DNA of 35,282 bases from an uncultured Acidimicrobiales bacterium. GTDB lineage: Bacteria > Actinomycetota > Acidimicrobiia > Acidimicrobiales > SHLQ01. Below the pieces are notes generated by a model. It did not search any database. It worked only from the letters and a program-made list of their open reading frames with translations, and had not been told where the DNA came from. This document shows, in pieces, positions 9,045 to 35,282 of this stretch. Location of the stretch: positions 1-35,282 of the forward strand of contig CALHTB010000110.1 in assembly GCA_938038785.1 (NCBI GenBank), in the 5' to 3' direction. Position numbers and translations under genes: made by a program. Within the stretch, counting starts at the first letter, position 1. Every line of letters begins with the position of its first letter.

Positions 9045-9261
9045 CAATGCTCGCTTTCACCCCGCCTAGGGTGTCATCACCTGAGGTATCGGCTCGTTCG
9101 CTTCAAAAGCGCATAGTTCGCCTGACCCTTGAGATGCCTGTCAATTCAGGTAGTGACCCCACCAGCATTCGAGTCAGACCAGCTCGACTGTGCGTTTGGC
9201 TTCTGTGGTCCGTGGTCACGAACGGTCGGGAGGGCGTACCACCGATGAGGTCTCCAGCAGA

Positions 9262-19032: not shown

Positions 19033-19166
19033 CCACCTTTCAAAAAACTCGGCACACAGGTCACACAGGGCCTCGTACAACCGATAGGTGAGCAAGCACT
19101 AGCGGCCTTCACCGGTGGGCTAGCGTTCGTGGTTGGTGCTATCTGCCAGTGAGGTTGAGGCAAGCA

Positions 19167-22347: not shown

Positions 22348-24609
22348 ATGCCGCATCAGGAACACAACGATTGGCCGTCTTTCGAGACGGTTCTTCGCGA
22401 CGTTGCGCCAGACAGCCCCGCTGCCCGGTCGCTCGCGTCCGCTGATCGTCGCGCCAAGTATGCCGAAAGTGCTTCGGCGATTCGGGCGTCTCGAGCGACT
22501 GTTGTTGGTACCGAGACTTCTCCCCCACCGGCGACACAAGAACGCGACTCCAGCTCGTTCAGTGTGGTTCGGCAAACATCTTCGAACCTCTCGTCGACAA
22601 CGGACTTTCCCGCACCCTTAGAGCCACTTGAGATCGACACCAGTTCGATTCGAGCTCTGATCGAACCACAAGGCGGCCCATCCCCCGCTCTTGATGATCC
22701 GGCTCTCGATGCACTCGCACCGTTGCCTGCTCTCGAAGTCGAGCTGTACGAAGAACTTGAACCCGACCTGTTGGACACGGTCATCGATCAAGATTCGGCG
22801 CTAGATCTCTTTGAGGATCGCGAACCTGCAGTCTTCACCGAAGATGCGACGTTCGATTCGGTTGAGCCCCAAGAGACCTTCGAAGCAATTCAAGTCGAAG
22901 GGGCCAACGACGTTGAACCCGAAGAGACCGCCCACGAATACGTTCAAGACGAACTTGCCTATGACGAACCGGTCGGGGCTATCGCTGACAACGAACCTGT
23001 TGCAGCACACGTCGAGGTCCGGTCTGACCAGATCGAGTTCACCGAGGCCAGCACGTTCGATACCGATTTCTCATTCGATGCCGATGCTGATGCTTCGGTA
23101 GTCGAATTCGAGACGCTCACCTTCGACGAACCGTTTGATTCGCCCGCCCCATCGTTTGACACCGCCGTCGAGGCCGTCGAAAACACCGAGGACGATCCTG
23201 GTACCTCGGCAATTGATCCCGATACGCCGGCATTCGACCCAGTGGCCGACGGAATCGAGTTTGGCAGCAGCACGCCATGGGCAACCGAGGCCGACTTTGG
23301 CGATGACGACTCGCTCGTCTTCGAGCTCGACGATTCCACCATTACTGAAGTCGACGCCGCCTTCGCCGCTGGATCTCAAGCATCCGAGCTTGCCGACCCC
23401 TTCTTCGATGCTGGTGGCGAACCTGACGCAGCAGCTGATGATCTCGTCTTCTCGACCACCGATGTTCCCAAGTTGCCCGAACCGAACCTGTTGGACGACC
23501 CCTTTGGCGGCGTATCTACCGACTTGTCACCCGACCCGATTGTGCCGGGCCCAGCATTCGTCACCAACGAACCAGCTGAGGACGCAAACGGATCCCTCTG
23601 GGGCCTTGACCTCGGCGACGAACCCTCGGTTGTCGATGTTGACGAGCTCGCAGTCGACGACCTTGAGACGATCGAGATTCCCGACGTCACGACGATCTCT
23701 TACGGAGGTTCCGAGTCTGACATCGAGCTTCCCGACACGTCCTACGCCGCCGAGTCATTTGACGACCTCGCCCCGATGGCCGACGAACAGCTCGATCTCT
23801 CGAACCTCGGTGAAACCGACGAAGTTGATGACCGGCGAGTCCTCGACCCTGACGAAATCGATCAGCGCAAAGCTGACCTGTTCGATTTCTCCGGAGCCGA
23901 CACGATCGAGCTTCCCGGAGACGCAACGGAATTTGATTCGGTCGCTACAGCAGAGGAAATCGAGAACCATCTCGACTCACTTCTCAACTACGAAGAGCAA
24001 GCGTCGGCCGACCTCGACAATGTCATCCCACTTCGTCGCGACGTCGATCTTCAGGCCGACTTCCACAACGAGCTCGCTAAGACCACCGCTGAGGGCAATG
24101 GCTCGAGCGACCTCTTTGGCAACGACGCCTTTGCCGACAACACGCTCGAAGACAACACGCTCCAGGACAACACGCTCCAGGACAATGTCGAGCAGTTCAA
24201 TATCGAACTCGCAGCTGACAACAGCGATGCCCCCGACAACACTAGTGTCGCCCCGTCCCACGGTGGATGGGTATCACTTCCACCAGAGGTCAAGACGAAG
24301 TCTCCCGACCCTTGGGCGCACATGCGTCCAACCGAAGAACCGAAGAAGAAGGGCTTTTGGGCGAACCGGCCGAAGTTCTTCGGTGGCGAGGAGCGGCGCC
24401 GGGCCAGGGCCCAGCGGACGCCGGATGCTGAGAGCGCTCTGGACGACAACGTTGTCGGAATTTCCTACGACAAGGCATGCCCGAACTGCAGCACCGAGTG
24501 TCAGGTTGATCTCGACGACCCGATTGGCCGTCGAGTACACGTCAGCTGCCCGTCATGTCAGCACATGTGGCACACCCCGTACATTCTCGAGGACAGCCAA
24601 GCCGGCTAA
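22348..24609 (+). CDS. Acidic disordered protein with C-terminal zinc ribbon
   Basis: A 753-residue protein starting MPHQEHNDWPSFETVLRDVA, with GGAGAG 12 nt before the ATG. A short ordered N-terminus (1-60, RSLASADRRAKYAESASAIR) is followed by about 580 residues of strongly acidic, low-complexity sequence rich in Asp, Glu, Pro, Thr and Phe. A basic patch (EEPKKKGFWANRPKFFGGEE, then RRRARAQR) precedes a zinc ribbon at about 711-735: ACPNCSTECQVDL and HVSCPSCQHMW, with two CxxC pairs, like the MJ0042/zinc-ribbon type usually found at N-termini. No TM or signal. Its composition matches the cytoplasmic part of the fasciclin-OmpA protein. It may form a scaffold or condensate; function unknown. Confidence 0.82.
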   Translation: MPHQEHNDWPSFETVLRDVAPDSPAARSLASADRRAKYAESASAIRASRATVVGTETSPPPATQERDSSSFSVVRQTSSNLSSTTDFPAPLEPLEIDTSSIRALIEPQGGPSPALDDPALDALAPLPALEVELYEELEPDLLDTVIDQDSALDLFEDREPAVFTEDATFDSVEPQETFEAIQVEGANDVEPEETAHEYVQDELAYDEPVGAIADNEPVAAHVEVRSDQIEFTEASTFDTDFSFDADADASVVEFETLTFDEPFDSPAPSFDTAVEAVENTEDDPGTSAIDPDTPAFDPVADGIEFGSSTPWATEADFGDDDSLVFELDDSTITEVDAAFAAGSQASELADPFFDAGGEPDAAADDLVFSTTDVPKLPEPNLLDDPFGGVSTDLSPDPIVPGPAFVTNEPAEDANGSLWGLDLGDEPSVVDVDELAVDDLETIEIPDVTTISYGGSESDIELPDTSYAAESFDDLAPMADEQLDLSNLGETDEVDDRRVLDPDEIDQRKADLFDFSGADTIELPGDATEFDSVATAEEIENHLDSLLNYEEQASADLDNVIPLRRDVDLQADFHNELAKTTAEGNGSSDLFGNDAFADNTLEDNTLQDNTLQDNVEQFNIELAADNSDAPDNTSVAPSHGGWVSLPPEVKTKSPDPWAHMRPTEEPKKKGFWANRPKFFGGEERRRARAQRTPDAESALDDNVVGISYDKACPNCSTECQVDLDDPIGRRVHVSCPSCQHMWHTPYILEDSQAG
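24136..24186 (+). repeat. 15-bp tandem repeat coding DNTLQ units
   Basis: Three consecutive copies of GACAACACGCTCCAG (the first ends GAA) encode DNTLE-DNTLQ-DNTLQ, followed by DN. It lies within the acidic zinc-ribbon gene and indicates recent expansion. Confidence 0.85.
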
Positions 24610-25319
24610 CCGAACATCGACATCCACTGTTCGGCGGTCTTGGGAACGAACACCATGTTTTGCGCCCGGGTTTCGCCCATCGTCGCCGATGGTGCTGGAG
24701 AGTACTGATGCCCAGGGAAGAGCACCGCGTCATCGGGGACCTTGCTGAGCACCTTCGTGAGGCTGTGGTACAGCTGTTCGGGGTCTCCACCGGGAAGATC
24801 GGTTCGACCACAACCCTGCAAGAAGAGGGTGTCACCGGCGATCAGACGATTGTCGACAAGAAACGACTGTGATCCGGGCGTGTGCCCTGGTGTGTGCAGA
24901 AGCTCGATCGAGATCGCTCCGACGTCGAGCGATTGACTACCGTCGTGCTGGACCAAGTCGTCGTTCGTCAGTCCGGTCACCTTCTTCACGTACTCGGCCT
25001 CGGCGGTTTGAATGTGCAGCGGCACGCTGGTCTCGCCGAGCAGCTCGGCAGCACCCGACACTGACAACCCCATCATGGAGCCACCAACATGGTCGGCGTG
25101 ATAGTGGGTGCCGAGCATGCCCACGCAGTTCATGCCATCAGCTTCGAGGATGCCGAGAATCCCAGCGGGGTCGTAGGCCGGGTCGACAATGACCGCTTCG
25201 TTCGTTTCGCGATCACCGATCAGGTAGACGAAGTTCACCATCTGTTGGGCAAACGGGTCGTCTTGAGCGAAGTCTCGGCCCGAGAGCAATTGGCGGAAGT
25301 ACAGGCGTTCGTCAGACAT
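24606..25319 (-). CDS. MBL-fold metallo-hydrolase (glyoxalase II / persulfide dioxygenase-like)
   Basis: A 237-residue enzyme starting MSDERLYFRQLLSGRDFAQD. Metal motifs are complete: THYHADHVGG (HxHxDH), HTPGHTPGS, AGDTLFLQG and LFPGHQYS. The set fits the glyoxalase II/ETHE1 branch, which cleaves thioesters or oxidises persulfides; the substrate cannot be told here. ATG 25319 overlaps the end of larC by 8 bp, so it is probably made as the third product of the larBC unit. An upstream in-frame start at 25370 would lie deep inside larC. Its stop overlaps by 4 bp the 3' end of the convergent acidic zinc-ribbon gene. Confidence 0.88.
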   Translation of the reverse strand: MSDERLYFRQLLSGRDFAQDDPFAQQMVNFVYLIGDRETNEAVIVDPAYDPAGILGILEADGMNCVGMLGTHYHADHVGGSMMGLSVSGAAELLGETSVPLHIQTAEAEYVKKVTGLTNDDLVQHDGSQSLDVGAISIELLHTPGHTPGSQSFLVDNRLIAGDTLFLQGCGRTDLPGGDPEQLYHSLTKVLSKVPDDAVLFPGHQYSPAPSATMGETRAQNMVFVPKTAEQWMSMFG

Positions 25320-26466
25320 CCTTCGACCGTACCTCGGCTTCGCGGGCAATGTCGCGGGCTGGCCGACCAAGCGCAGCAGCGGCTGTGGCTACGTCGTCGT
25401 ATTCGGCTTTGGTGGTGAGTTCGGTCTGTTTCACTCGGATCTGATGCCCATCGACATCTACGGTCACGACCTTGCGCTCGATAGCCGCCCGAGATACGCC
25501 ATGAGCGCGAAAACCAAGTGATCCCGTCTCGGCGAGCAGTAGCGCACCGAGACGACTCGCATCGACCGGCTCGACGAGAGCCGACACGGTTGCCGCCGGA
25601 CGGTCCTTCTTCATTTCGATCGGGGTGATCCACGCATCGAGAGCCCCAGCCGACATCAGCTGAGCGACAGCATGAGAAAGGTACTCGCCGCTCAGGTCGT
25701 CGACGTTTGTCTCGATCACGATGAGCTGTTCGGTGGACGTCGCCTCGGCCTCGCCAACGACCACGTGCAGCAGGTTTGGATGCTCGTCGAGTTCGCTGTC
25801 TCCCGCACCAAAGCCTGACGCTGTGATGGACATTGCGGGCATCGGCCCGAAACTATCGGCGAGCGCCCGCACCAGAGCAGCGCCGGTCGGGGTCGTGAGT
25901 TCAACTTGCACATCGAGGCCGCGAACCGGCACACCCTCGAGCAGTTGCATCGTTGCTGGCGCGGGGTTCGGGATAACACCATGGGCGCTCTTGGCCATAC
26001 CTCGACCAACGGTGACCGGGGCAACGACGATGCGGTCGATACCTAGCTGCTCGAGCGCAAGGCACGACCCGACCACATCGACGATGGCGTCGATGCCACC
26101 GACCTCATGGAAATGGACCGTGTCGGGGTCGGTGCGGTGCACGTGGCCTTCGGCCTGGGCCAAGGCTTCGAATACGGCGGTCGAACGTGCGACCACCCGT
26201 TCGTTGAGGCCGGCGGCCGAGACCAGTTCGATGATGTCCCGAGCAGTGCGATGCACATGCCCCTCGTCAGCGTCGACGGTGAGGTTGACCGCGCCGATGC
26301 CGTTTCGAAAGACCTCGGCGGTGTTCAACTCCCAACCGTCAACGCTCAGCTTGTGCAGATCAGCACGAATCTCGTCGGCATCAGCGCCCGCATCGATCAA
26401 CGCGCCAAGGGTCATGTCGCCAGCGATGCCGTTGAACGGATGGATCCAGAGGGTTGTAACGGTCAT
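25312..26466 (-). CDS. larC: Nickel-pincer nucleotide synthase LarC
   Basis: A 384-residue protein that inserts nickel into the pyridinium pincer cofactor of lactate racemase-type enzymes. The family N-terminus (TTLWIHPFNGIAGDMTLGAL) and the motif HFHEVGGIDAIVDVVGS are present, as is the C-terminal half (ETNVDDLSGEYLSHAVAQLM, ITPIEMKKDRPA). The start is ATG 26466, overlapping the larB stop as ATGA; a longer in-frame start at 26643 lies inside larB. It is a single continuous gene, unlike the Lactiplantibacillus version that needs a ribosomal frameshift. The MBL hydrolase follows with an 8-bp overlap. Confidence 0.92.
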   Translation of the reverse strand: MTVTTLWIHPFNGIAGDMTLGALIDAGADADEIRADLHKLSVDGWELNTAEVFRNGIGAVNLTVDADEGHVHRTARDIIELVSAAGLNERVVARSTAVFEALAQAEGHVHRTDPDTVHFHEVGGIDAIVDVVGSCLALEQLGIDRIVVAPVTVGRGMAKSAHGVIPNPAPATMQLLEGVPVRGLDVQVELTTPTGAALVRALADSFGPMPAMSITASGFGAGDSELDEHPNLLHVVVGEAEATSTEQLIVIETNVDDLSGEYLSHAVAQLMSAGALDAWITPIEMKKDRPAATVSALVEPVDASRLGALLLAETGSLGFRAHGVSRAAIERKVVTVDVDGHQIRVKQTELTTKAEYDDVATAAAALGRPARDIAREAEVRSKDV

Positions 26467-27221
26467 GAATCTCGCAGCTGCGCAATTCGCATTGCGCTGA
26501 CCGCAGCGCCATAACCATTGTCGATACCGACGACGGAGATACCAGCGGCACACGACGCCAACATTCCTAGCAATGCCGTGACCCCTTCGAGACCCGCGCC
26601 GTACCCAACGCTCGTTGGTACCGCGATGACCGGTTGGGCGCACAAGCCACCAAGCACCGACGCAAGCGCGCCCTCCATGCCCGCAATGACGATCACGATG
26701 TCGGCTTCCGCGATGCGGTCGACTTCGGCCAGCAACCGGTGAAGACCGGCGACCCCAACATCGCTAATCCGGTCGGCCGCGATGCCGTACGAGCGAAGGG
26801 TGGCAGCACACTCATCGGCGACGGGTGTATCGGCGGTTCCGGCGGTGACAACTGCAATGCGATGGCTGTGGTCGACCTCGGGCACTCGCCAGGTCAGCAC
26901 CCCGCCCATCTCGGTCATGCCAGCGTGGGCAGTCTCCAGCGCCGAGCGTTGCGCTTCGGTCGTACGGGTGACGATCACCGGGCCGCGGCCGTTGGTCAAC
27001 AACTCCTCGACGATGGCGACGCATTGCTCGGGAGACTTCCCAGGCCCGTACACCGCCTCTGGGAGGCCTTGTCGCAGTAGGCGATGATGGTCGATCTTTG
27101 CATTGGCGTCGCCGGGGAGCTCGACGAAGGGCAGCCGCCGCAATTGGGCGACCGCCTCGTCGGCTGAGGTCTCCCCCGACTGAATCTGCTCGATCAGGGA
27201 GCGCAGTGACGATTCATCCAC
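26463..27221 (-). CDS. larB: Pyridinium-3,5-biscarboxylate synthase LarB
   Basis: A 252-residue protein with an AIR-carboxylase-like C-terminal half. It carboxylates and hydrolyses nicotinate adenine dinucleotide, the first step of the nickel-pincer cofactor. Family motifs are VIVTRTTEAQRSA, VVTAGTADTPVADECA, VIAGMEGALASVLGGL, VIAVPTSVGYGAG and GIDNGYGAAV. GTG 27221 (MDESSLRSLIEQIQSGE) gives the normal length; the longer frame to 27335 would overlap divergent pheA. It is the first gene of the larB-larC-MBL unit. larE and larA are not in the window and must lie elsewhere if the cofactor is made. Confidence 0.92.
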   Translation of the reverse strand: MDESSLRSLIEQIQSGETSADEAVAQLRRLPFVELPGDANAKIDHHRLLRQGLPEAVYGPGKSPEQCVAIVEELLTNGRGPVIVTRTTEAQRSALETAHAGMTEMGGVLTWRVPEVDHSHRIAVVTAGTADTPVADECAATLRSYGIAADRISDVGVAGLHRLLAEVDRIAEADIVIVIAGMEGALASVLGGLCAQPVIAVPTSVGYGAGLEGVTALLGMLASCAAGISVVGIDNGYGAAVSAMRIAQLRDS

Positions 27222-27274
27222 AGCCCCATCGTGGCAAGATTCCCGAAGTTTTCCTCTCTGGGTATGGTTGTCGG

Positions 27275-28120
27275 GTGACTTCTCGATCTCGTATTGCATT
27301 TCAGGGCGTTCCTGGCGCTTATTCACATATGGCATGCGCAGCTGCGTACCCCGACATGGAAGCCGTCGGCCACGGGACCTTTGCCGAGTGTTTTGCCGCA
27401 GTAGAGGCGGGCGGCTGTGAGTTGGCGATGATCCCCATCGAGAACACCCTCGGCGGCCGGGTTGCCGACATGCATCACCTGCTTCCTGAGTCGAGCCTCT
27501 ACATCATTGGTGAGCACTACCAGCCGGTGCGCCATCAGCTGCTCGCTCCGCACGGGGCCACCCTCGACTCACTCAAGACCATCGCGTCGCACGAGCAAGG
27601 CCTTGCCCAATGCCGCGAGCTGTTCCGCGAGCTCGGTGTCGAAGCGCTCGACTTTGGCGACACCGCCGGTGCAGCGAAGGAAGCAGCCGAGCGAAACGAC
27701 CCAACCTTTGGCGCAATTGCCAGCGAGCTTGCCGCCGAGACCTACGGTCTACAGATTCTTCGTAGCCGCATCGAAGACCGTCTTGGGAACACCACCCGCA
27801 TGGTGGTGATGTCTCGCACGTCTGTCGAACCAGACCCACTCGACGGAGCCGCAATGACCAGCTTGGTTTTCGAGACTCGAAGCGTTCCCGGCGCGTTGTA
27901 CAAGGCCCTCGGTGGGTTTGCGACCAACGGCGTCAATATCACCAAGCTCGAGAGCTACATCATCGACCAGAGCTTCACCGCCGCGCAGTTCTACATCGAA
28001 GTCGAGGGACACCCATCAGACCCTGCGGTGTCGAACGCGTTCGAAGAGCTGCAGTTCTTCTCAGCGAAAATGAAGCGCCTGGGTACCTACCCGAAGTCTG
28101 ACTGGCGCTCGCAGCCATAA
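27275..28120 (+). CDS. pheA: Prephenate dehydratase
   Basis: A 282-residue enzyme that converts prephenate to phenylpyruvate in phenylalanine synthesis. The catalytic part (1-180) begins RIAFQGVPGAYSHMACAAAY and contains MIPIENTLGGRVADMHHLL and the GNTTRMVV loop (TRM in place of the common TRF). A C-terminal ACT domain (about 190-265: TSLVFETRSVPGALYKALGG, GVNITKLESYIID) should sense phenylalanine. Its LESYI replaces the classic ESRP, as in some other bacterial branches. GTG 27275 is the start that matches the family; upstream sequence overlaps larB on the other strand. There are 53 bp between the divergent pheA and larB starts. Confidence 0.93.
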   Translation: MTSRSRIAFQGVPGAYSHMACAAAYPDMEAVGHGTFAECFAAVEAGGCELAMIPIENTLGGRVADMHHLLPESSLYIIGEHYQPVRHQLLAPHGATLDSLKTIASHEQGLAQCRELFRELGVEALDFGDTAGAAKEAAERNDPTFGAIASELAAETYGLQILRSRIEDRLGNTTRMVVMSRTSVEPDPLDGAAMTSLVFETRSVPGALYKALGGFATNGVNITKLESYIIDQSFTAAQFYIEVEGHPSDPAVSNAFEELQFFSAKMKRLGTYPKSDWRSQP

Positions 28121-28141
28121 GGGTTGTGCTTGGCGGACGGG

Positions 28142-29047
28142 CTACTTGCCAAGTCGCTCGGCGGCAACGCCAACAAGGGTTCGGCTCACTCGAACGAGAT
28201 CGCTTGGTTGGCTGATAACCCTCGCCTGCCAAAGTCTGCGCAGCACTGGCCCCAAGCCTTCGCTGCGGAGCTGGCGCGATGCCACCCACCACAACACGGT
28301 TTCGTCGGAGACTCGAACGTCCTCGGCAGACCGGTGGTTTCCGTACCGTTCACGGAACCCAACCAGCGCGTCCCAACCCTCGCTGAGGTCTTTGGTCATC
28401 TGCCCTTCGTGCTGGACGTAGTCGACGAGTGGAGCATCAACGAGCGCTGGGTCGCCATGGGCGGCCAGGCGGATGTAGAGATCCCAGTCGGCGAAGAGCG
28501 GAACCGAGGGGTTGAACGAACCGACGCTCTCAAACACTGACCTCCTCACGACGAGTGACGAGCCAGGCCCAGGCACTTGATTCGTGGTGAGAAAAAGCCG
28601 GAGCGTCTCGCGCTGTTGGACCGCGGTCTGTATTCGCTCGACGGAACCTTTACCCAGCAACTGTCCCGACGGGGTCACGATTCGAGCTCCGCACACCGAC
28701 CAGTCCGCATTTGCCGACGCCAACGCCTCAAGTTGGCGGTGCAACTTCGTTGGCGCCCATCGATCGTCGTCGTCGAGGAAGGCAAGAATGTCGTAGCTAG
28801 CCGCCTGAGCTCCGGTATTGCGCGCCTGCGGCTCACCGTGGTCTTTGTCGCGACGAACCACGACGAGGCGTGGGTCGTCGAGAGCAGCAAGCACCCCTGG
28901 CGTCTCGTCCGACGACCCATCGTCTACCACGACTACCTCGACGCGAATATTGGTCTGCTCCAACGCTGACCGGATCGCCAGTGGCGCCAGATGAGCTCGA
29001 TTCCGGGTGGGAATCACCACACTCACGGGCATCGACGCGGTGGTCAA
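28142..29047 (-). CDS. Family 2 glycosyltransferase
   Basis: A 301-residue GT-A enzyme. The N-terminus MPVSVVIPTRNRAHLAPLAI, the nucleotide-binding VEVVVVDDGSSDET and the DxD-type ILAFLDDDDRW are typical of GT2. Residues ~150-215 (RETLRLFLTTNQVPGPGSSL, FADWDLYIRLAAHGD) form the acceptor part. No TM segment. TTG 29047 or ATG 29032 may be the start. It lies 12 bp behind the SDR-aminotransferase fusion gene, so the two are probably one transcript. It would transfer a sugar, perhaps the aminosugar made by its partner; the exact substrate cannot be told. It converges on pheA, with a 21-bp gap. Confidence 0.88.
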   Translation of the reverse strand: MTTASMPVSVVIPTRNRAHLAPLAIRSALEQTNIRVEVVVVDDGSSDETPGVLAALDDPRLVVVRRDKDHGEPQARNTGAQAASYDILAFLDDDDRWAPTKLHRQLEALASANADWSVCGARIVTPSGQLLGKGSVERIQTAVQQRETLRLFLTTNQVPGPGSSLVVRRSVFESVGSFNPSVPLFADWDLYIRLAAHGDPALVDAPLVDYVQHEGQMTKDLSEGWDALVGFRERYGNHRSAEDVRVSDETVLWWVASRQLRSEGLGPVLRRLWQARVISQPSDLVRVSRTLVGVAAERLGK

Positions 29048-29059
29048 GAACCTTGGTCC

Positions 29060-31150
29060 TTAGCCTTTGGCTACGTCATCGACAGCACCGAGGAATCGCT
29101 CTGCGACCTCGGGGATGATCGCCGGGTCGAGGCCCGCGCCGCTCGGCAGGGACACCACCCGACGGTCGACATCAGCAGAAACCGGTGGCGGTTCGCCGAT
29201 ACCGAGGAGCAGTGATTGTGACGGGAACTGCGGGCGTGCCTGGACGCCCGCTTTATCCGCTGCGGCCAAAATGTCGTCTCGCCGATCGGCCAACTCGTTC
29301 GGCAGCAAGAACGGGGCGTGGATGCGAGTGCTCACCCCAACTTCTTCTTGAGCTTGGAAACCGCGAGGCTCGAGGATCGCTCGGTAAGCCCCGTAGATCG
29401 ACCGGAGGTGGTCGACATTTCGATGTAGTGATGGCCAGGCCTCGCAGAGGTAGGCCGCGTTGAGTTCTGGCAACCTTGCCTGTCGCACAAGTTGCGATGG
29501 TACGGCTTCTACCCGTTCGATCTCACCGGCGGGAGCGCACAGCGCGCCGCCCATACCGGCTGCGTGAATGGGTTTGGTGAAGCTGAAGCTCATCGCGATG
29601 TAGTCAGCGTGATCTCCCACCGAGCTGTCAGACCGGCTTGCCCCGAGGCTCTCGCAGGCGTCAATGATCAGGGGCACCCCTGCGGCGCGACACACCGCGC
29701 CAAGGCCGGCCCAGTCAGCGGGAGTTCCAAAGTTGTCGACCGCAACCACGGCGGCCACATCGTGTTGGGCGAGCTGCTGCTCGACAAGCGCAGGGTCGAG
29801 GTTCCAGGTGTCTGTCGTGATATCGGTGATCAGCGGCGTTGCTCCAGTTGCCATCACCGTGGCTGCAACCGCGTGAAAGGCCAGGTCGGGAACGATTACT
29901 GACTTCCCTGCGCGAACTCCGGCGAGCCACAACGCCCGGGAAAGCGAGTCGGTTCCTGACCGCATTGCTAAGACGTCCCACCCGTCGGGCAGGCCAAGTT
30001 CGTCAGAGAGCAGCTGTTCGACCTTGGTCGAGTAGGCGCCGGTCAACCGATAGCGCGACTGTGACATGACCTGGCGTTGCATGCCACCAACACGATCGAG
30101 TGTTGCCGTGTCGACACCGGCAGGCGTGACAAGCGGTGCATGCAGGTCGCCCGAGGGAGCGTCCCCGGGAGTTGTTCGGCGTAGGTCGTCGCCAAGCTGT
30201 CCGGATTCATGCAGCACCAATAATCGAGAGCATCGTTCGACTCCAGCGTCGGTGTTGAACACCCGAAGTCGGGTTACAAGATCGGCCACTCCATCAGCGA
30301 TCGACCAACGTGGCGCAAAGCCCGCCGCAGCGAACTTCGCCCCGTCGATCATGTATGTACGCGGATCAACAGCGGGTTTGGCATCGACCACTGCGACCTC
30401 AACGCCCGACCCACCCAACGCGGAGACGATGGCGTCTAGGGCGTTCGCTACCGAGAGGTTGCAACCATCTCCAACAACGTTGTGAATGTCGAACGCAGCA
30501 AGCTCCAGCTCAGCGGCGAGCAATAGCGCAGCGGCAGCATCCTCGACATGGACAAATGGCCGCGAAGAATCGCCGTTTGACGACAGCTGAAGATGTTCGC
30601 CACGGATTGCCCGCGAGGTCATGCGGTTCACCAACAGGTCCGGTCGAAGCATTGAGGCCCAGCCAAAGCAGCTCGCCAGCCGCACGACCGACACCGTGAA
30701 GTCGGCCGTTGCGTGCTGTCGCAAGGACTGCTCCATTTCGTACTTTGCCTTGGCATAGATCGACACCGGGGCAACCGGGTCGGTTTCTTTGCAGGGCGTG
30801 TCACCGTTGTTGTACACCGCCGCGCTCGACGAGAACACAAATCGGCTGACACCCGCTGCCGATGCTGCCTGAGCAAACCTGGTAACAGCAGCTACTTCGT
30901 CGGTCATCGGGAACCGTTTTGCCACCGCGTCGTTCGACAATCCAGCGAGGTGAAACACCGTGTCGATGTTGGCCAGGTCTCCCGTCGTGAGATCGCGAAA
31001 ATCGCGCCCGCCAGATAGCGGTTCCTTAGCAAACCAGTTCGTGTCCCAGAGCTCTAGCGGGACGCCTTGCTGCAACAAGAGCGGGACGAGCGCGCTTCCG
31101 ACGTATCCGGCATGGCCGGTCACCAACACATTGCCGAGCTTGCGCCTCAC
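29060..31150 (-). CDS. Fusion of SDR sugar epimerase/dehydratase and DegT-type aminotransferase
   Basis: A 696-residue two-enzyme fusion. Residues 1-~300 are an extended SDR: Rossmann GHAGYVGS near the start, SSSAAVYNN, and the catalytic YAKAK (Tyr-x3-Lys). Residues ~355-696 are a DegT/DnrJ/EryC1 PLP aminotransferase: LAMRSGTDSLSRALWLAG, VPDLAFHAVAATVMATGATP, LIIDACESLGASRSD and the PLP lysine in SFSFTKPIHAAGMGG. A ~55-residue linker joins them. The usual pathway order, sugar oxidation/epimerisation then transamination, fits one protein making an amino-sugar nucleotide. GTG 31150 has AAGGGG 4-5 nt upstream. It heads the unit with GT2 and is divergent from the Alg14-like gene. Confidence 0.9.
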   Translation of the reverse strand: MRRKLGNVLVTGHAGYVGSALVPLLLQQGVPLELWDTNWFAKEPLSGGRDFRDLTTGDLANIDTVFHLAGLSNDAVAKRFPMTDEVAAVTRFAQAASAAGVSRFVFSSSAAVYNNGDTPCKETDPVAPVSIYAKAKYEMEQSLRQHATADFTVSVVRLASCFGWASMLRPDLLVNRMTSRAIRGEHLQLSSNGDSSRPFVHVEDAAAALLLAAELELAAFDIHNVVGDGCNLSVANALDAIVSALGGSGVEVAVVDAKPAVDPRTYMIDGAKFAAAGFAPRWSIADGVADLVTRLRVFNTDAGVERCSRLLVLHESGQLGDDLRRTTPGDAPSGDLHAPLVTPAGVDTATLDRVGGMQRQVMSQSRYRLTGAYSTKVEQLLSDELGLPDGWDVLAMRSGTDSLSRALWLAGVRAGKSVIVPDLAFHAVAATVMATGATPLITDITTDTWNLDPALVEQQLAQHDVAAVVAVDNFGTPADWAGLGAVCRAAGVPLIIDACESLGASRSDSSVGDHADYIAMSFSFTKPIHAAGMGGALCAPAGEIERVEAVPSQLVRQARLPELNAAYLCEAWPSLHRNVDHLRSIYGAYRAILEPRGFQAQEEVGVSTRIHAPFLLPNELADRRDDILAAADKAGVQARPQFPSQSLLLGIGEPPPVSADVDRRVVSLPSGAGLDPAIIPEVAERFLGAVDDVAKG

Positions 31151-31255
31151 ACGACCCCTTCGATAGATGGAGTGCAAGCATCACGCTTGTCAACCCACCC
31201 GCCGTGTACCACTTTAGATACCGTGAACGTGAAGAGTACGAGAGGGGCGGAAATT
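31151..31255. promoter_or_regulatory. Divergent promoter region of the glycan locus
   Basis: The 105 bp between the fusion gene and the Alg14-like gene must hold both promoters. On the minus strand a good -35 TTGACA lies at 31193-31188 with only a weak -10. On the plus strand a -10-like TAGATA lies at 31215-31220 with no clear -35. Divergent layout suggests joint control of both arms. Confidence 0.35.
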
Positions 31256-31717
31256 GTGTCGGGCGCCGTCGCTGTCGCGTTCGTCTCGAGCTCCGGTGGC
31301 GTTCTCCCAGACGTGCTGACGGTGGCGAACAACTGGCCGGTCCCGATCAGCGAACTATGGATCGCTCCCAAGACGGTCGATACCGAATCGAAACTCGGCG
31401 GCCGAGACGTGCTCTGGCTCGATGAGCCAGACGGACGACCAGCCTCGATGATTCGAGCCACGGCTGCAGCCCGCGCAACACTGCAGTCGCGCAACATCGA
31501 TTGGGTTGCGTCTGCGGGAACCGCGATCGCGTTGCCGTTCTTCGTGGCCGCCCAAAGCCTTGGGGTGTCGACCTTGTGGATCGAGACCCTCAATATTCAT
31601 GGCGGCCATGGTCGGGTGGCTGAGATTTGTAGTCGGTTGGCGACACGCACGCTCGTGCAGAGCCCTGACCGGATGCTCGCCCATCGGCGAGCGTTGCTCA
31701 TTGGTGAACTGCAATGA
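31256..31717 (+). CDS. Alg14/PssD/CpsF-like glycosyltransferase subunit
   Basis: A 153-residue protein of the usual Alg14-like length. GTG 31256 follows GAGGGG by about 8 nt; longer in-frame starts lack such a site. Features are the SSSGGVLPDVL loop near the N-terminus, IDWVASAGTAIALPFFVAAQ, STLWIETLNIHGG and the end SRLATRTLVQSPDRM. In this family the Alg14-like part holds the membrane and acceptor side and recruits the Alg13-like catalytic partner, here the next gene, overlapping as ATGA. Together they add a sugar to a polyprenol-linked acceptor at the inner membrane face. A clear TM helix is not obvious in this copy. Confidence 0.8.
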   Translation: MSGAVAVAFVSSSGGVLPDVLTVANNWPVPISELWIAPKTVDTESKLGGRDVLWLDEPDGRPASMIRATAAARATLQSRNIDWVASAGTAIALPFFVAAQSLGVSTLWIETLNIHGGHGRVAEICSRLATRTLVQSPDRMLAHRRALLIGELQ

Positions 31718-32970
31718 CCACACCAGCGACGACACCGCTGAACATTTTCGTCACCGTTGGGATGAGCCAGTTTCCGTTCGACCGCCTCATGGGGGCCCTC
31801 GAATCGATCGTCGATGACCACAGCGTGTTCGCACAGATCGGCGCTTCGAACATCGAGCCTCGATGTGAGTTCGCTCGGTACATCGACCCCGACGAACTCG
31901 AACTTCGAATTAGTCAAGCCGACGTCATCATCACCCACGCTGGTAACACGGTGCGACAAGTACAGCGATGGGGCAAGGCGCCGATTGTCGTTCCTCGCCG
32001 AGAGGCGCTCGGTGAGATGTCGAACGATCATCAAAAGCGATTTGTCGAGTTCGAGGCGCACAAGGCACCAATGGTGGTCCTCGATGACGATCTGCAAGGT
32101 CTGTCCGAAGCGGTATCGGCTCACGCTCAACGAGAGGCCCGCCTTCTCGAGGAACGGGTCGTGCCTCCCGCTACCCAGGCCGACGATTTTGACGGTCTCC
32201 TCCGCCCGGTGATCACCGACACGTCGGCAAACCCGCTGGCCAACCACCCAACCCGACGTTTCTCGTGGGCCTTCGCACAACTCGCCCATCTCGCAGGAAC
32301 GCACCTCGATCTTGGAGGCGGGTACGGCGACTTCGCAGCTGCACTTGAGGAGCACAGCCCGCGGTCGGTTATCTGCGCCGATGTAGCCACCGACAAAGTC
32401 CACGACAATGGAGTTCAGCTGCGTTCACGGGTTGAGCTCGGTAACAAGATGTCACTACCGCTTCGCGATGCCGCAGTGAGCTCGGTGTCAATGCTCGATG
32501 TCCTCGAACATGTGTGGGACGAAGACGCCGTTTTGCAAGAGGTGCATCGGGTACTCGAATCAGGCGGCTCGCTCGTGGTGACGGTGCCTCGCCACCACTG
32601 GCTCAGCATCCTCGACCCAGACAACGTGAAGTATCGGGCCCCGCGATTTCACAAGGCGGTGTACTCAGCCCGCTTCGGCAAAGCGCGCTACTACGAACGC
32701 TTTGGTGATACCACTGATGGGATGCAAGGCGACTTGGCAACCGAGCGAGGCTGGCACACGAACTATCGCGCCGACGATCTGTTCGCCACTCTTGAGCGAA
32801 ACGGGTTTGACGTCGTCGAGCACGACGCCGCCAATTTGTTCTGGCGGTTCTTCGACATCCCTCGGCTCTTTTTGCCCGAGAAGTGGGAGTGGATCACCCA
32901 CGGAGCGCTTCGTCTCGACGCCAAGCTGTTCCATCAGGCCAACCTCTTCGTGCGCGCCGAACGCCGATGA
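31714..32970 (+). CDS. Fusion of Alg13/PssE-like glycosyltransferase and SAM methyltransferase
   Basis: A 418-residue fusion. Residues 1-~160 are Alg13-like: IFVTVGMSQFPFDRLMGALE, VFAQIGASNIEP, ADVIITHAGNTVRQV and APIVVPRREALGEMSNDHQK, which form the nucleotide-sugar site. Residues ~185-418 are a class I methyltransferase: THLDLGGGYGDFAAAL (motif I), VICADVATD (motif II) and SMLDVLEHVWDEDAVLQEVH. The partner Alg14-like gene ends 4 bp into this gene (ATGA). The fusion suggests that the sugar is methylated on, or just after, transfer. The next gene again overlaps as ATGA at 32967-32970. This domain pair is not one I know as standard. Confidence 0.87.
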   Translation: MTTPATTPLNIFVTVGMSQFPFDRLMGALESIVDDHSVFAQIGASNIEPRCEFARYIDPDELELRISQADVIITHAGNTVRQVQRWGKAPIVVPRREALGEMSNDHQKRFVEFEAHKAPMVVLDDDLQGLSEAVSAHAQREARLLEERVVPPATQADDFDGLLRPVITDTSANPLANHPTRRFSWAFAQLAHLAGTHLDLGGGYGDFAAALEEHSPRSVICADVATDKVHDNGVQLRSRVELGNKMSLPLRDAAVSSVSMLDVLEHVWDEDAVLQEVHRVLESGGSLVVTVPRHHWLSILDPDNVKYRAPRFHKAVYSARFGKARYYERFGDTTDGMQGDLATERGWHTNYRADDLFATLERNGFDVVEHDAANLFWRFFDIPRLFLPEKWEWITHGALRLDAKLFHQANLFVRAERR

Positions 32971-34145
32971 GCACACCAGTCCAGATCGGCCGCAAGGGTG
33001 ACGGCCCACGAGTGCCCGAGTTCGTTCACGTGCCACGCGAACCAATGTCGGCTGCCACTCGGACTGCCCGTCTCGGACGCTTCGTCGCAAGTACCTGGAT
33101 CAAGCGACATATAAAGCCCGATCTCCACATTCAACCGATCGCCGCCGAGCTCTTCCTCACCGACAACTGCAACCTGAAGTGCATCAGCTGTACCTGCTGG
33201 CATGAAAGCACGTTGGGCGAACTGTCGACCGAAGAGTGGTTGAGCGTGGTCGACCAACTCGCGCAACTCGGGTTCATCAAGTTGAACTTCACCGGCGGCG
33301 AATCGCTGATCCGTCGTGATGCCGTGCGAATCATCGCTCACGCACGCGATGCGGGCATCACCGACCTGCACGTGAACACGAACGGTCTGCTGCTCACGCC
33401 CGAACGTGCCGAGGAACTTGTGCAGGCGGGGGTTCGCAGCTTCAACATTTCGATCGATGGGCCAACGTCGGATGTGCACGACCCAATTCGCGGCCAGGAA
33501 GGTGCCTACGACACCACGATCAAGCACCTGAAGCTGGTGAAGCAGCGCCCCGATGCTGACTCGCTTGCTGTGCGCATGAACTTCACCGTGTTGAAGGACA
33601 ACCATCACCACCTGCCCGCAATGGCCGCGCTGGCCAAGGAGCTTGGTGTCGACTTGTATCTCAACCTCGGCACCGACACGACCTTCATGTTCAGAAGCCA
33701 GTCGATTTCCGAACAGACCGAGATCGATGGCGACAGTTTGCGGGCTGTCCTCGCCAAGATGACCGCACTTGTCGAACAAGACCCCACGCATCTTCCACCC
33801 CAGCGCGAGCTCGACTACATCCCCGGCCACTTCGAGCTCGAGCCCAAGGTTGACGTGCCGTGTGTCGAGTCGCAACTGAAGTTGATGATTCGCTCGACTG
33901 GCGAGACCGGTGGGTGCTGGGGTCACGATGCCGTGGTCAATGTACGCAACATGCTCATCGCCGACATCATCGACACGGCCCACTACCGAAAAGAGCACGA
34001 GCGGCTCTTCGCCAAAGACTGCGTCGAGTGCGGATCGAACTATGCCGTGAACCTGCGAACTCAGCCGGCCACCGCAGCGTCGGTGACCGTGAAGTCGATT
34101 CTGCAAAAGACCGGGCGGGTCCGCCGAGAACGAGGCCGTACATGA
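32967..34145 (+). CDS. Radical SAM enzyme with twitch/SPASM-like C-terminus
   Basis: A 392-residue enzyme starting MSTPVQIGRKGDGPRVPE; an upstream in-frame start at 32883 lies inside the previous gene. The iron-sulfur motif CNLKCISC (CX3CX2C) lies at about residues 69-76, followed by LNFTGGESLIRRD (GGE SAM-binding motif) and the barrel strands VNTNGLLLTPERAEEL and RSFNISIDGPTSDVHDP. The C-terminal part has Cys residues in CVESQLKL, GGCWGHD and KDCVECGSNY, suggesting one auxiliary cluster (twitch/SPASM). Such enzymes perform radical epimerisation, dehydration, methylation or peptide/sugar modification. Context points to sugar or glycolipid tailoring. Both ends overlap neighbours by ATGA, so production is coupled. 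Confidence 0.92.
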   Translation: MSTPVQIGRKGDGPRVPEFVHVPREPMSAATRTARLGRFVASTWIKRHIKPDLHIQPIAAELFLTDNCNLKCISCTCWHESTLGELSTEEWLSVVDQLAQLGFIKLNFTGGESLIRRDAVRIIAHARDAGITDLHVNTNGLLLTPERAEELVQAGVRSFNISIDGPTSDVHDPIRGQEGAYDTTIKHLKLVKQRPDADSLAVRMNFTVLKDNHHHLPAMAALAKELGVDLYLNLGTDTTFMFRSQSISEQTEIDGDSLRAVLAKMTALVEQDPTHLPPQRELDYIPGHFELEPKVDVPCVESQLKLMIRSTGETGGCWGHDAVVNVRNMLIADIIDTAHYRKEHERLFAKDCVECGSNYAVNLRTQPATAASVTVKSILQKTGRVRRERGRT

Positions 34146-34924
34146 CATCGATCGACCCCGCCGCCTTCTACGACGGCATGGCCGAGAACTACGAGGCCGA
34201 GTTCGATGCGCCGCATCGTCGGGCCTACGACGACCTCTGCTGGGAGTACGTCGACGCACTGATCGGCGACCGCGCCGACTTGTTGATCGTCGATGTTGGT
34301 TGTGGTGTTGGCCGTTGGGCCCGGCCACTCGTCGAACGCGGCCATCGGGTCCTCGGTATCGAACCGAGTGCCGACATGTGTGCCGGTGCCCGCGCGTTGA
34401 ACCTCGGTGACCGATTCGAGCTGCAGCACGCAACAGCGGACGACGCAGTTGTCGCGACAGCGACTGCCGATCTCGTGGTTGCGATGGGGTCGATCCAGTA
34501 CTCCCCCGACCCAACGGCATCGATTGCGACAATGGCATCGTGGTTGAAGCCCGGCGGACACATGGGCGTGCTGGTCGATTCGCTCATGGGGCTCGTAACC
34601 GAGCTCATCCGCAACGACGACCCCGACCAAGCACTAGAGCGGGTGACGGGACGGCGAGCACGGTTTACGTCAACTCCGGGCACCGTCGAGCATCACCTTT
34701 TTGACGCGGCCGAACTTCGGGCAGCGTTCGAAGCCGCAGGGCTCGCCGACGTGTCGGTTCGTGGGCTCTTGGTCGACTGGACCAGCCGACCACGCGAGCA
34801 GGCGATGCAACGAATGATCGACAACCCCGCGAACGGGCTCGATCTGGAGCGCCGACTTTCCGAGCTCGAACGGCTCGCCGACATGGGCAAGCAGCTGCTC
34901 GCCATAGGCCAACGGCCCGCATAG
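34142..34924 (+). CDS. Class I SAM-dependent methyltransferase
   Basis: A 260-residue enzyme starting MTSIDPAAFYDGMAENYEAE, with ATGA overlap to the radical SAM gene. The SAM-binding motif LIVDVGCGVGRWARPLVERG is followed by the acidic VLGIEPSADM and by DLVVAMGSIQYSPDPTASIA and the post-motif WLKPGGHMGVLVDSL. The C-terminal ~70 residues (AELRAAFEAAGLADVSVRGL) fit Methyltransf_11/25 types. It is the last gene of the four-gene unit. It probably methylates the sugar or lipid product, or a radical-SAM-made intermediate. It runs toward tRNA-Arg on the opposite strand, with no clear terminator between. Confidence 0.9.
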   Translation: MTSIDPAAFYDGMAENYEAEFDAPHRRAYDDLCWEYVDALIGDRADLLIVDVGCGVGRWARPLVERGHRVLGIEPSADMCAGARALNLGDRFELQHATADDAVVATATADLVVAMGSIQYSPDPTASIATMASWLKPGGHMGVLVDSLMGLVTELIRNDDPDQALERVTGRRARFTSTPGTVEHHLFDAAELRAAFEAAGLADVSVRGLLVDWTSRPREQAMQRMIDNPANGLDLERRLSELERLADMGKQLLAIGQRPA

Positions 34925-34958
34925 CCGCCGGCTAAAGAATTCCGCCTGATCTATTCTG

Positions 34959-35032
34959 CGCGCCCGTAGGGACTCGAACCCCAAACCTTCTGTTCCGTAG
35001 ACAGATGCTCTATCCAATTGAGCTACGGGCGC
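34959..35032 (-). tRNA. tRNA-Arg (anticodon ACG)
   Basis: Full cloverleaf on the minus strand: acceptor GCGCCCG/CGGGCGC, D arm GCTC/GAGC, anticodon stem TCTGT/ACAGA with loop CTACGGA (anticodon ACG, read as ICG), and T arm TGGGG-TTCGAGT-CCCTA. The discriminator is G. CCA is not encoded. Confidence 0.97.
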
Positions 35033-35147
35033 TAGCTGTATTTGCTACGTCGTGAGTCTAGACCCATCGCTCACGTGCCCCACCTGTTACGCGCAAGTCG
35101 CGAGAATAAGGGCAGCGACCGAGGTATTGCCAGCTATCCTTATGAGT

Positions 35148-35237
35148 GGAGAGATGGCAGAGCGGACGATTGCGTCGGTCTTGAAAACCGTTGAACCTTT
35201 ACGGGTTCCGGGGGTTCGAATCCCCCTCTCTCCGCCA
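35148..35237 (+). tRNA. tRNA-Ser (anticodon TGA)
   Basis: Class II tRNA with acceptor GGAGAGA/TCTCTCC, anticodon loop CTTGAAA (anticodon TGA), a long variable arm (around GAACCTTTACGGGTTC) and T arm GGGGG-TTCGAAT-CCCCC. Discriminator G and an encoded CCA (35235-35237) follow. Confidence 0.97.
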
Positions 35238-35282
35238 CAAAGGCCCTGGTAGGCTTGCTAAGCGAAGCAATTCGCGGCAAGA

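Follow-up and report, generated by a model that had tools for sequence, protein, structure and literature searches.

The window, that is the whole stretch of 35,282 nucleotides analysed here, carries five neighboring genes (A–E) encoding a PssD/PssE-like glycosyltransferase pair, a radical SAM enzyme, two methyltransferase domains and a fused SDR-aminotransferase. The same five genes are found at a different genomic position in a second genome of the genus, and they probably constitute a dedicated module, equipped to make one amino sugar, transfer it and tailor it. When the workings proposed for the module below are included, we regard the whole statement as evenly poised between right and wrong.

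Organization of the five-gene block

Four co-directional ORFs (A, B, C and D) lie on the + strand, and ATGA is read at each of the three junctions between them (31714-31717, 32967-32970 and 34142-34145; Table 1), so that the four genes and three 4-bp overlaps described in the initial annotation are borne out by both the ORF and the sequence reading. That four-gene set stands as far as it goes, but a fifth gene, E, which runs the other way at 29060-31150, had been overlooked, and hence the amino-sugar logic of the locus was invisible. The overlaps offer a potential for translational coupling and no more, the tight stoichiometry previously read from them being something that can only be inferred, and co-expression of E with A–D is likewise assumed, E being divergently transcribed. 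Gene A likely starts at GTG 31256, with AGGGG ending 8 bases upstream in our reading of the sequence, an alternative in-frame GTG at 31223 being possible; the ORF of E is listed from TTG 31177, and the start at GTG 31150 gives a protein of 696 aa. The spacers around the block are short (E to A, 105 bp; E to GT2, 12 bp; GT2 to pheA, 21 bp; D to tRNA, 33 bp). No sigma-70-type promoter was matched in the divergent region between E and A (31151-31255), and promoter and terminator scans found nothing.

Table 1. Features of the insert and of the five-gene block in the window
Feature	Coordinates	Strand	Details
Gene A, PssD/Alg14-like glycosyltransferase subunit	31256..31717	+	153 aa from GTG 31256
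Gene B, PssE/Alg13-like domain fused to class I methyltransferase	31714..32970	+	418 aa
Gene C, radical SAM enzyme, four-cysteine Twitch-type C-terminal motif	32967..34145	+	392 aa
Gene D, class I SAM-dependent methyltransferase	34142..34924	+	260 aa; Pfam, G011 identity
Gene E, SDR epimerase/dehydratase fused to DegT-type aminotransferase	29060..31150	-	696 aa from GTG 31150
Divergent intergenic region, E to A	31151..31255	.	105 bp
GT2 glycosyltransferase gene, 12 bp after E	28142..29047	-	Pfam; inside insert, outside conserved block
Insert, 6.8-kb, between pheA and tRNA-Arg(ACG); holds GT2, E, A, B, C, D	28121..34957

The initial assignments of C as a radical SAM enzyme (Radical_SAM, 83.7 bits, cut-off 29.5) and of D as a methyltransferase (Methyltransf_23, Methyltransf_25 and Methyltransf_11) agree with Pfam matches above cut-off. 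In E both Epimerase and DegT exceed their Pfam cut-offs, and the solved chains closest to it belong to sugar enzymes (MoeE5 and WbpE and, lower, 2-deoxy-scyllo-inosose aminotransferase).

Recurrence of the block at a second genomic position

In the same-genus genome G011 the genes recur as E-A-B-C-D in the same arrangement; each of the three ATGA junctions is retained there, and so are the two fusions. Protein identity to the window is 53-63% over the block (A 57.1%, B 60.5%, D 56.4% and E 52.9%, the last at full length), and the SDR, PLP-lysine, radical SAM and SAM-binding motifs are kept in both copies. Changes are concentrated at third codon positions, 54-61% of which differ as against 23-35% of first and second positions, and together with the recurrence of genes, order, overlaps and fusions this places the pattern first seen in the window beyond chance. 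The G011 block lies elsewhere in its genome than the window site, the equivalent of which is empty (pheA, about 45 bp and tRNA-Arg). Because E-A-B-C-D recurs elsewhere and the window-equivalent site holds nothing, the five genes behave as a unit, a conclusion that is well supported by an arrangement kept at two genomic positions.

The block is also rare. C was found in 2 of 298 genomes of the order at E<=1e-40, and two block copies only were found; the neighborhood check met the genes together, with E, in G011 rather than scattered, in keeping with the dedicated system that had been proposed. A search of genome contigs by exact short-pattern seeding, from which close relatives only are expected, gave two weak relatives of C, and viral contigs gave none; plasmids gave 487 records, all below 60% identity, with 2 covering at least 80% of C. 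In the WOR-3 locus L005 a SPASM radical SAM gene lies amid glycosyltransferases and methyltransferases; it was rejected as an orthologous block, since its radical SAM protein is 26% identical and carries a complete SPASM domain, and since relatives of A, B, D and E were not found there at E<=1e-5. The relatives of E in G031, G042, G120 and G215 comprise the SDR half alone and have no A–D relatives nearby at E<=1e-4, and were not accepted as block copies. After D in G011 come arylmalonate-decarboxylase-type, sulfotransferase and FrhB-type genes, which are absent from the window's insert and so are unsupported as core members. FrhB and decarboxylase relatives (60% and 43%, respectively) occur on other contigs of G000 and are found in 8/11 and 7/11 genus genomes, respectively; the flanks of the G011 FrhB gene are not common to three other genus loci.

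At the insertion site, the spacing between pheA and tRNA-Arg is about 45-260 bp in 4 of the 7 readable genus relatives. The insert has a G+C content of about 0.60-0.64, resembling the left flank, so that there is no support for a recent acquisition from a donor of different composition. Pfam identified no integrase among its genes (GT2, E, A, B, C and D), 20 bases of the tRNA-Arg 3' end have a single occurrence in the window at <=3 mismatches, leaving no far-end copy, and the repeats found within 27900-35282 do not flank the insert. With neither integrase nor att repeat, an integrase-type tRNA-targeted island was rejected.

A probable two-part glycosyltransferase with a fused tailoring domain

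Alg14 and Alg13 are the eukaryotic counterpart of such two-part glycosyltransferases, and the Alg14/Alg13-like pair first proposed for A and B is upheld in PssD/PssE-like form. The first half of B matches Glyco_tran_28_C (residues 12-146; 32.6 bits, Pfam cut-off 22), and the claimed methyltransferase fusion is confirmed by Methyltransf_11 in the second half (residues 198-289; 46.5 bits, Pfam cut-off 21.2) and by its retention in G011. A PssE-like ORF adjoins or is fused to the A-like part in 27 of the 28 other A-like loci (L033-L060; for L033-L035 the wider loci L063-L065 were used), L053 being the sole exception. A scores 26.9 bits against the PssD model NF041549 (cut-off 110, not reached) and 17.3 bits against Pfam Glyco_transf_28 (below the cut-off of 26.2), and B scores 65.5 bits against the PssE model NF041548 (cut-off 120, not reached); since neither protein reaches the NCBIfam threshold of its model, the pair is named PssD/PssE-like only. 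A and the first domain of B match the PssD/PssE (Cps14F/Cps14G) models in order and adjacency, whereas they differ from that system in scoring below the NCBIfam cut-offs, in the methyltransferase borne by B and in the presence of C, D and E alongside.

A PssD-like gene with a PssE-sulfotransferase fusion is encoded at further loci of the same genus (G000 C26, G011 C4, G016, G017 and G018), and the fusion is present also in L089 and L098. As in the block, the PssE-like domain of the genus loci carries a C-terminal tailoring domain and adjoins an A-like gene, but the tailoring domain is a sulfotransferase where that of B is a methyltransferase. These fusions indicate that tailoring domains on the PssE subunit recur. 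A is only 30-32% identical to the copies at the genus loci, leaving the idea that the block is a recent copy of one of them unsupported, and C, D, E and the methyltransferase half of B have no relative there at E<=1e-5.

Gene C has a four-cysteine Twitch-type motif

The radical SAM CxxxCxxC triad of C is formed by C68, C72 and C75. Its auxiliary cysteines (C299-x12-G312-x4-C317 and C352-x2-C355), beyond which the window protein has no cysteine, are all kept in G011. Compared with the start of the SPASM motif, CX9-15GX4C-gap-CX2C, as given in PMC6231123, they correspond exactly to the first half (four cysteines), the second half being absent. The layout fits complete ligation of a Twitch cluster, as seen in BtrN, an enzyme of butirosin biosynthesis that oxidizes an aminocyclitol and whose Twitch cluster has four Cys ligands (PMC9012708). 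C resembles BtrN in having the triad and, beyond it, four cysteines ordered as in a Twitch domain, and in a sugar-type gene context with a DegT aminotransferase; it differs in lacking a sequence match to BtrN, in lying within a glycosyltransferase block and in having an activity that is predicted. As BtrN is absent among the solved chains matched by C (12 in one search and 17 in another, in the core only), C is not filed as a BtrN relative but only as perhaps working alike. Function is described as hard to predict from sequence in this radical SAM subfamily (PMC6231123), and by analogy we tentatively suggest, at clearly less than even confidence, that C oxidizes a sugar alcohol as BtrN does.

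No NCBIfam cut-off was reached by C among the best 25 of 61 matches, the top one being heme b synthase; several of these 25 are RiPP enzymes, matching the radical SAM core only. The top solved chain by sequence, the RiPP enzyme SkfB, is similarly limited to the core. By the unreached cut-offs and the heme b synthase match C does not group tightly with RiPP enzymes, consistent with the earlier reading, although its matches to RiPP enzymes point the other way. About 60 residues lie ahead of the radical SAM core, and there is no Pfam match before residue 64 at E<=0.01, hence none to a peptide-binding domain, although Pfam can miss RREs; nor does C have a cobalamin-binding Pfam match.

Proposed working of the module and alternative readings

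In the proposed module the SDR half of E would reshape a nucleotide sugar, the presumed donor, and the DegT half would aminate a keto carbon. Together, A and the PssE-like domain of B would assemble as one two-part glycosyltransferase that passes a sugar to an acceptor of other origin, either lipid-linked or a glycan, with methyl groups added by the methyltransferase half of B and by D. C would most likely carry out a two-electron oxidation of a sugar alcohol, yielding a ketone, and in this putative order of steps the ketone would be aminated by the aminotransferase half of E and then N-methylated by a methyltransferase. The polyprenol carrier of the initial annotation, and its sequence of transfer, then radical chemistry and methylation, are conjectural. 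Butirosin provides a precedent for this oxidation and amination logic, as does gentamicin with a non-radical dehydrogenase. In gentamicin tailoring GenD2, GenS2, GenN and GenD1 (dehydrogenase, PLP aminotransferase, N-methyltransferase and radical SAM enzyme) act on one sugar ring (PMC4340712), a set of enzyme types like that of the block; unlike C, however, GenD1 is a cobalamin-dependent methylase, and gentamicin is a soluble antibiotic. Counting against the proposal, the genes examined beside the block included no flippase, polymerase or lipid-priming gene.

The strongest alternative, which we consider unlikely but deserving of serious weight, is a surface-polysaccharide cassette, variable among strains, with genes directed at different residues of one polymer; C would epimerize or decarboxylate a uronic acid rather than prepare an amine, and E would supply an unrelated sugar. 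B also gives 41.1 bits with the glucuronosyltransferase model WelK (cut-off 400), the core of C matches cytosylglucuronate decarboxylase among the solved chains (PMC3715490), relatives have other genes at the pheA-tRNA site (G010 and G015, MBOAT acyltransferases; G013, a methyltransferase), and the WOR-3 locus likewise combines a SPASM radical SAM gene with glycosyltransferases and methyltransferases. The keeping of the five-gene arrangement at two positions nevertheless favors one joint task, and the GT2 gene next to E does not travel with the five genes, being found in 1/11 genus genomes (its own) at E<=1e-25.

Distinctly improbable is a small-molecule pathway in which A/B would glycosylate a metabolite or lipid and the product would be a secreted aminoglycoside-like or glycolipid natural product: the gentamicin combination of oxidation, transamination, methylation and radical SAM chemistry on one ring and the Twitch radical SAM oxidation of butirosin (PMC4340712 and PMC9012708) speak for it, but Pfam finds no scaffold-forming, resistance or transport gene in the insert, and PssD/PssE-type transferases are annotated as polysaccharide enzymes. 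Finally, a RiPP-type system, with C modifying a ribosomal peptide and the sugar genes decorating it, is very improbable: SkfB, the best solved match to the core of C, is a sactipeptide enzyme of the Twitch type, but C, unlike SkfB, CteB and SuiB with their N-terminal RRE domains (PMC6231123), has no peptide-binding Pfam match ahead of its core and reached no RiPP family cut-off among the 25 best of its 61 NCBIfam matches, and because A–D overlap and the spacers are so small no usual precursor gene fits anywhere from GT2 to tRNA-Arg.

Implications

The dedicated amino-sugar module may further represent an undescribed class of glycan module, in which a PssE/Alg13-type subunit carries its own tailoring enzyme, so that the sugar would be modified at delivery, and a Twitch radical SAM dehydrogenase would act on a membrane-linked glycan; this broader claim we rate as rather unlikely. 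Twitch radical SAM dehydrogenases are a type familiar from antibiotic sugars. As first supposed, no described pathway with this gene set was found in the literature searched, which takes in only a minority of subscription journals.

If the proposal is correct, bacteria would bring together in one portable block the genes needed to make an unusual sugar, attach it and decorate it. The fusion of PssE-type subunits with tailoring enzymes, whether methyltransferase or sulfotransferase, would then provide one experimental handle on such systems, and the presence of a Twitch radical SAM enzyme away from antibiotic pathways another. Since to our knowledge characterized radical SAM enzymes that act on structural glycans are few, the five-gene block may serve as a small test system.

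Gene content and conservation of the block

ORFs, junction sequence and domain assignments bear out the initial annotation in its description of four co-directional genes (A-D) connected by ATGA overlaps at the A/B, B/C and C/D junctions, an arrangement that suggests translational coupling. The gene set it gave was incomplete, with gene E on the opposite strand overlooked. A scores 26.9 bits against the NCBIfam PssD model (cut-off 110) and B 65.5 bits against the PssE model (cut-off 120), and since both fall under their cut-offs "PssD/PssE-like" is used as a label. The PssD/Alg14-like type of A is supported by the other A-like loci (L033-L060), because in 27 of 28 the A-like part is adjacent to, or fused with, a PssE-like ORF (exception L053; L033-L035 scored on the wider loci L063-L065).

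Coordinates of the block, its flanking genes and related PssE-like fusions
Feature	Position	Strand	Basis or remark
pheA	27098-28120		
GT2 gene	28142-29047		12 bp after E
E, SDR epimerase/dehydratase fused to DegT aminotransferase	29060-31150	-	both above Pfam cut-offs
A, PssD/Alg14-like subunit	31256-31717	+	NCBIfam models below cut-off, context
B, PssE/Alg13-like domain (residues 12-146) and class I methyltransferase (from ~residue 194)	31714-32970	+	
C, radical SAM enzyme	32967-34145	+	
D, second methyltransferase	34142-34924	+	
tRNA-Arg(ACG)	34958-35032		
PssE-like-sulfotransferase fusions, genus	L061:6540-8153 (window genome, contig C26); L062:6759-8381; L063:7351-8874; L064:8584-10125; L065:4258-5874		

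The same five genes are arranged alike in G011, a genome of the same genus, where the three junctions are again ATGA and both fusions (in B and in E) are retained. Between the two copies the proteins are identical at 52.9% of positions for E, 57.1% for A, 60.5% for B, 62.8% for C and 56.4% for D, and codons differ at 54–61% of third positions and 23–35% of first and second positions. Both copies contain the E motifs TGxxGxxG, YxxxK and SFSFTK, the C motifs CxxxCxxC and GGE, and the glycine-rich SAM motifs of B and D. In G011, D is followed on the same strand by closely spaced arylmalonate-decarboxylase-type, sulfotransferase and FrhB-type genes (L007:13330-16192), a trio absent from the window insert.

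Genomic site

In the window, 6.8 kb separate pheA from tRNA-Arg(ACG), a stretch occupied by GT2, E and A-D. pheA was detected in 9 of 11 genus genomes, and in the seven relatives with both genes on the fetched stretch (L127-L133; G017 was excluded as its contig ends too early) the distance, counted from where the match or ORF ends, is ~53 bp (G014), ~933 bp (G013), ~256 bp (G012), ~45 bp (G011, therefore counted as empty), ~88 bp (G009, tRNA on the opposite strand), ~4,976 bp (G010) and ~1,539 bp (G015). The gap is a variable site within the genus: four of these relatives have almost nothing in it, and the other three have insertions of 0.9, 1.5 and 5 kb. The G010 and G015 insertions each carry an MBOAT gene, and that of G013 a methyltransferase. 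A Pfam scan of GT2, E and A-D found no integrase, no att repeat flanking the insert was found in the window, and the G+C of the insert is on par with the left flank.

In G011 the block sits on another contig (C31). The E-A-B-C-D arrangement is kept at these two unrelated genomic positions and behaves as a unit. This strengthens the earlier proposal of a dedicated block, though the case is built on two copies. GT2 is not carried along: at 1e-25 only the window genome, out of 11 in the genus, has it. The block proteins (53–63% identity) diverge more between the two genomes than pheA (75%; 81% over 280 residues in a second comparison), which fits either separate acquisition or faster change.

Elsewhere in the window, the nickel-pincer cofactor biosynthesis genes LarC and LarB adjoin pheA (25312-27335), followed by a metallo-beta-lactamase-fold gene (24606-25370). 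A Mutator-family transposase (934-2193) lies near the left contig end, an 840-aa ORF (19149-21671) carries a Fasciclin and then an OmpA domain, and predicted ORFs at 6546-9047 (833 aa) and 22348-24609 (753 aa) have no Pfam match above cut-off.

Rarity of the block genes

Absences of block genes are approximate, because completeness is 73% for the window genome and other genomes in the draws also fall short of it; the draws overlap, and all counts for C, B, E and GT2 include the window genome. At E<=1e-40 a search of 298 order genomes found C in 2 (the window genome and G011). At 1e-20, 3 of 19 family genomes match; in G017, the third of them, the 36% match is confined to the radical SAM core. 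In a draw of 345 class genomes without G011, a two-sequence C profile hit 20 at 1e-20, and all except the window genome match only inside the first 234 of 400 positions; core relatives within the class have 22–28% identity. Among 396 phylum genomes, B was found at 1e-25 in the window genome alone, and at 1e-10, where 50 of 316 genomes match, only the window genome spans both domains. Six of 248 order genomes match E at 1e-40, full length only in the window genome and G011, and in the SDR half in the other four.

Radical SAM enzyme and proposed chemistry

The window C has eight cysteines, of which C68, C72 and C75 form the radical SAM triad and C77 follows. The remaining four (C299-x12-G312-x4-C317 ... 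C352-x2-C355) coincide with the SPASM motif's first half, CX9-15GX4C-gap-CX2C, as given in an extract of PMC6231123; the second half, as that extract describes it, is absent from C, and the layout is therefore of the Twitch type. According to an excerpt of PMC9012708, BtrN, which oxidises the aminocyclitol DOIA, binds its Twitch cluster through four cysteines, while the MoaA cluster has three cysteine ligands and one site free for substrate; the four-cysteine pattern of C fits the BtrN type. We hypothesize only that C may have a BtrN-like role, because solved enzymes match its core alone (best SkfB, a RiPP enzyme, then MoaA, cytosylglucuronate decarboxylase and PqqE) and BtrN is not among the matched chains (12 in one search, 17 in another), none of the 25 NCBIfam matches listed, out of 61, reaches its cut-off, and the extract of PMC6231123 cautions that function in this subfamily is hard to predict from sequence.

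The nearest solved chains of E are MoeE5 for the first half and, for the second, WbpE and, lower, 2-deoxy-scyllo-inosose aminotransferase. We infer a scheme in which E would produce an amino sugar, A and B would transfer a sugar, the second domain of B and D would methylate, and C would carry out a radical step, supplying a ketone for the aminotransferase half of E. The last proposal draws on the Twitch radical SAM oxidation of the butirosin pathway (PMC9012708, in part) and on gentamicin, where one ring undergoes oxidation, transamination, N-methylation and radical SAM C-methylation (PMC4340712, in part). A uronic-acid version of the chemistry is a live alternative, with weak matches of B to the WelK model and of the core of C to cytosylglucuronate decarboxylase.

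Tailoring domains on the PssE-like subunit

The window genome (contig C26), G011 (contig C4), G016, G017 and G018 have a second A-like gene, next to which a PssE-like domain is joined to a sulfotransferase. The same fusion occurs in two genomes from other families of the phylum (L089, L098), and in a third (L086) the sulfotransferase match is under its cut-off. In all, 53 of the loci fetched carry a PssE-like ORF (each overlapping locus counted on its own), and among them the methyltransferase version is found only at the block loci of the window genome and G011. With sulfotransferase fusions in the genus and in other families and a methyltransferase in the block, a tailoring enzyme joined to the PssE subunit is a recurring design, in which the block has a different partner.
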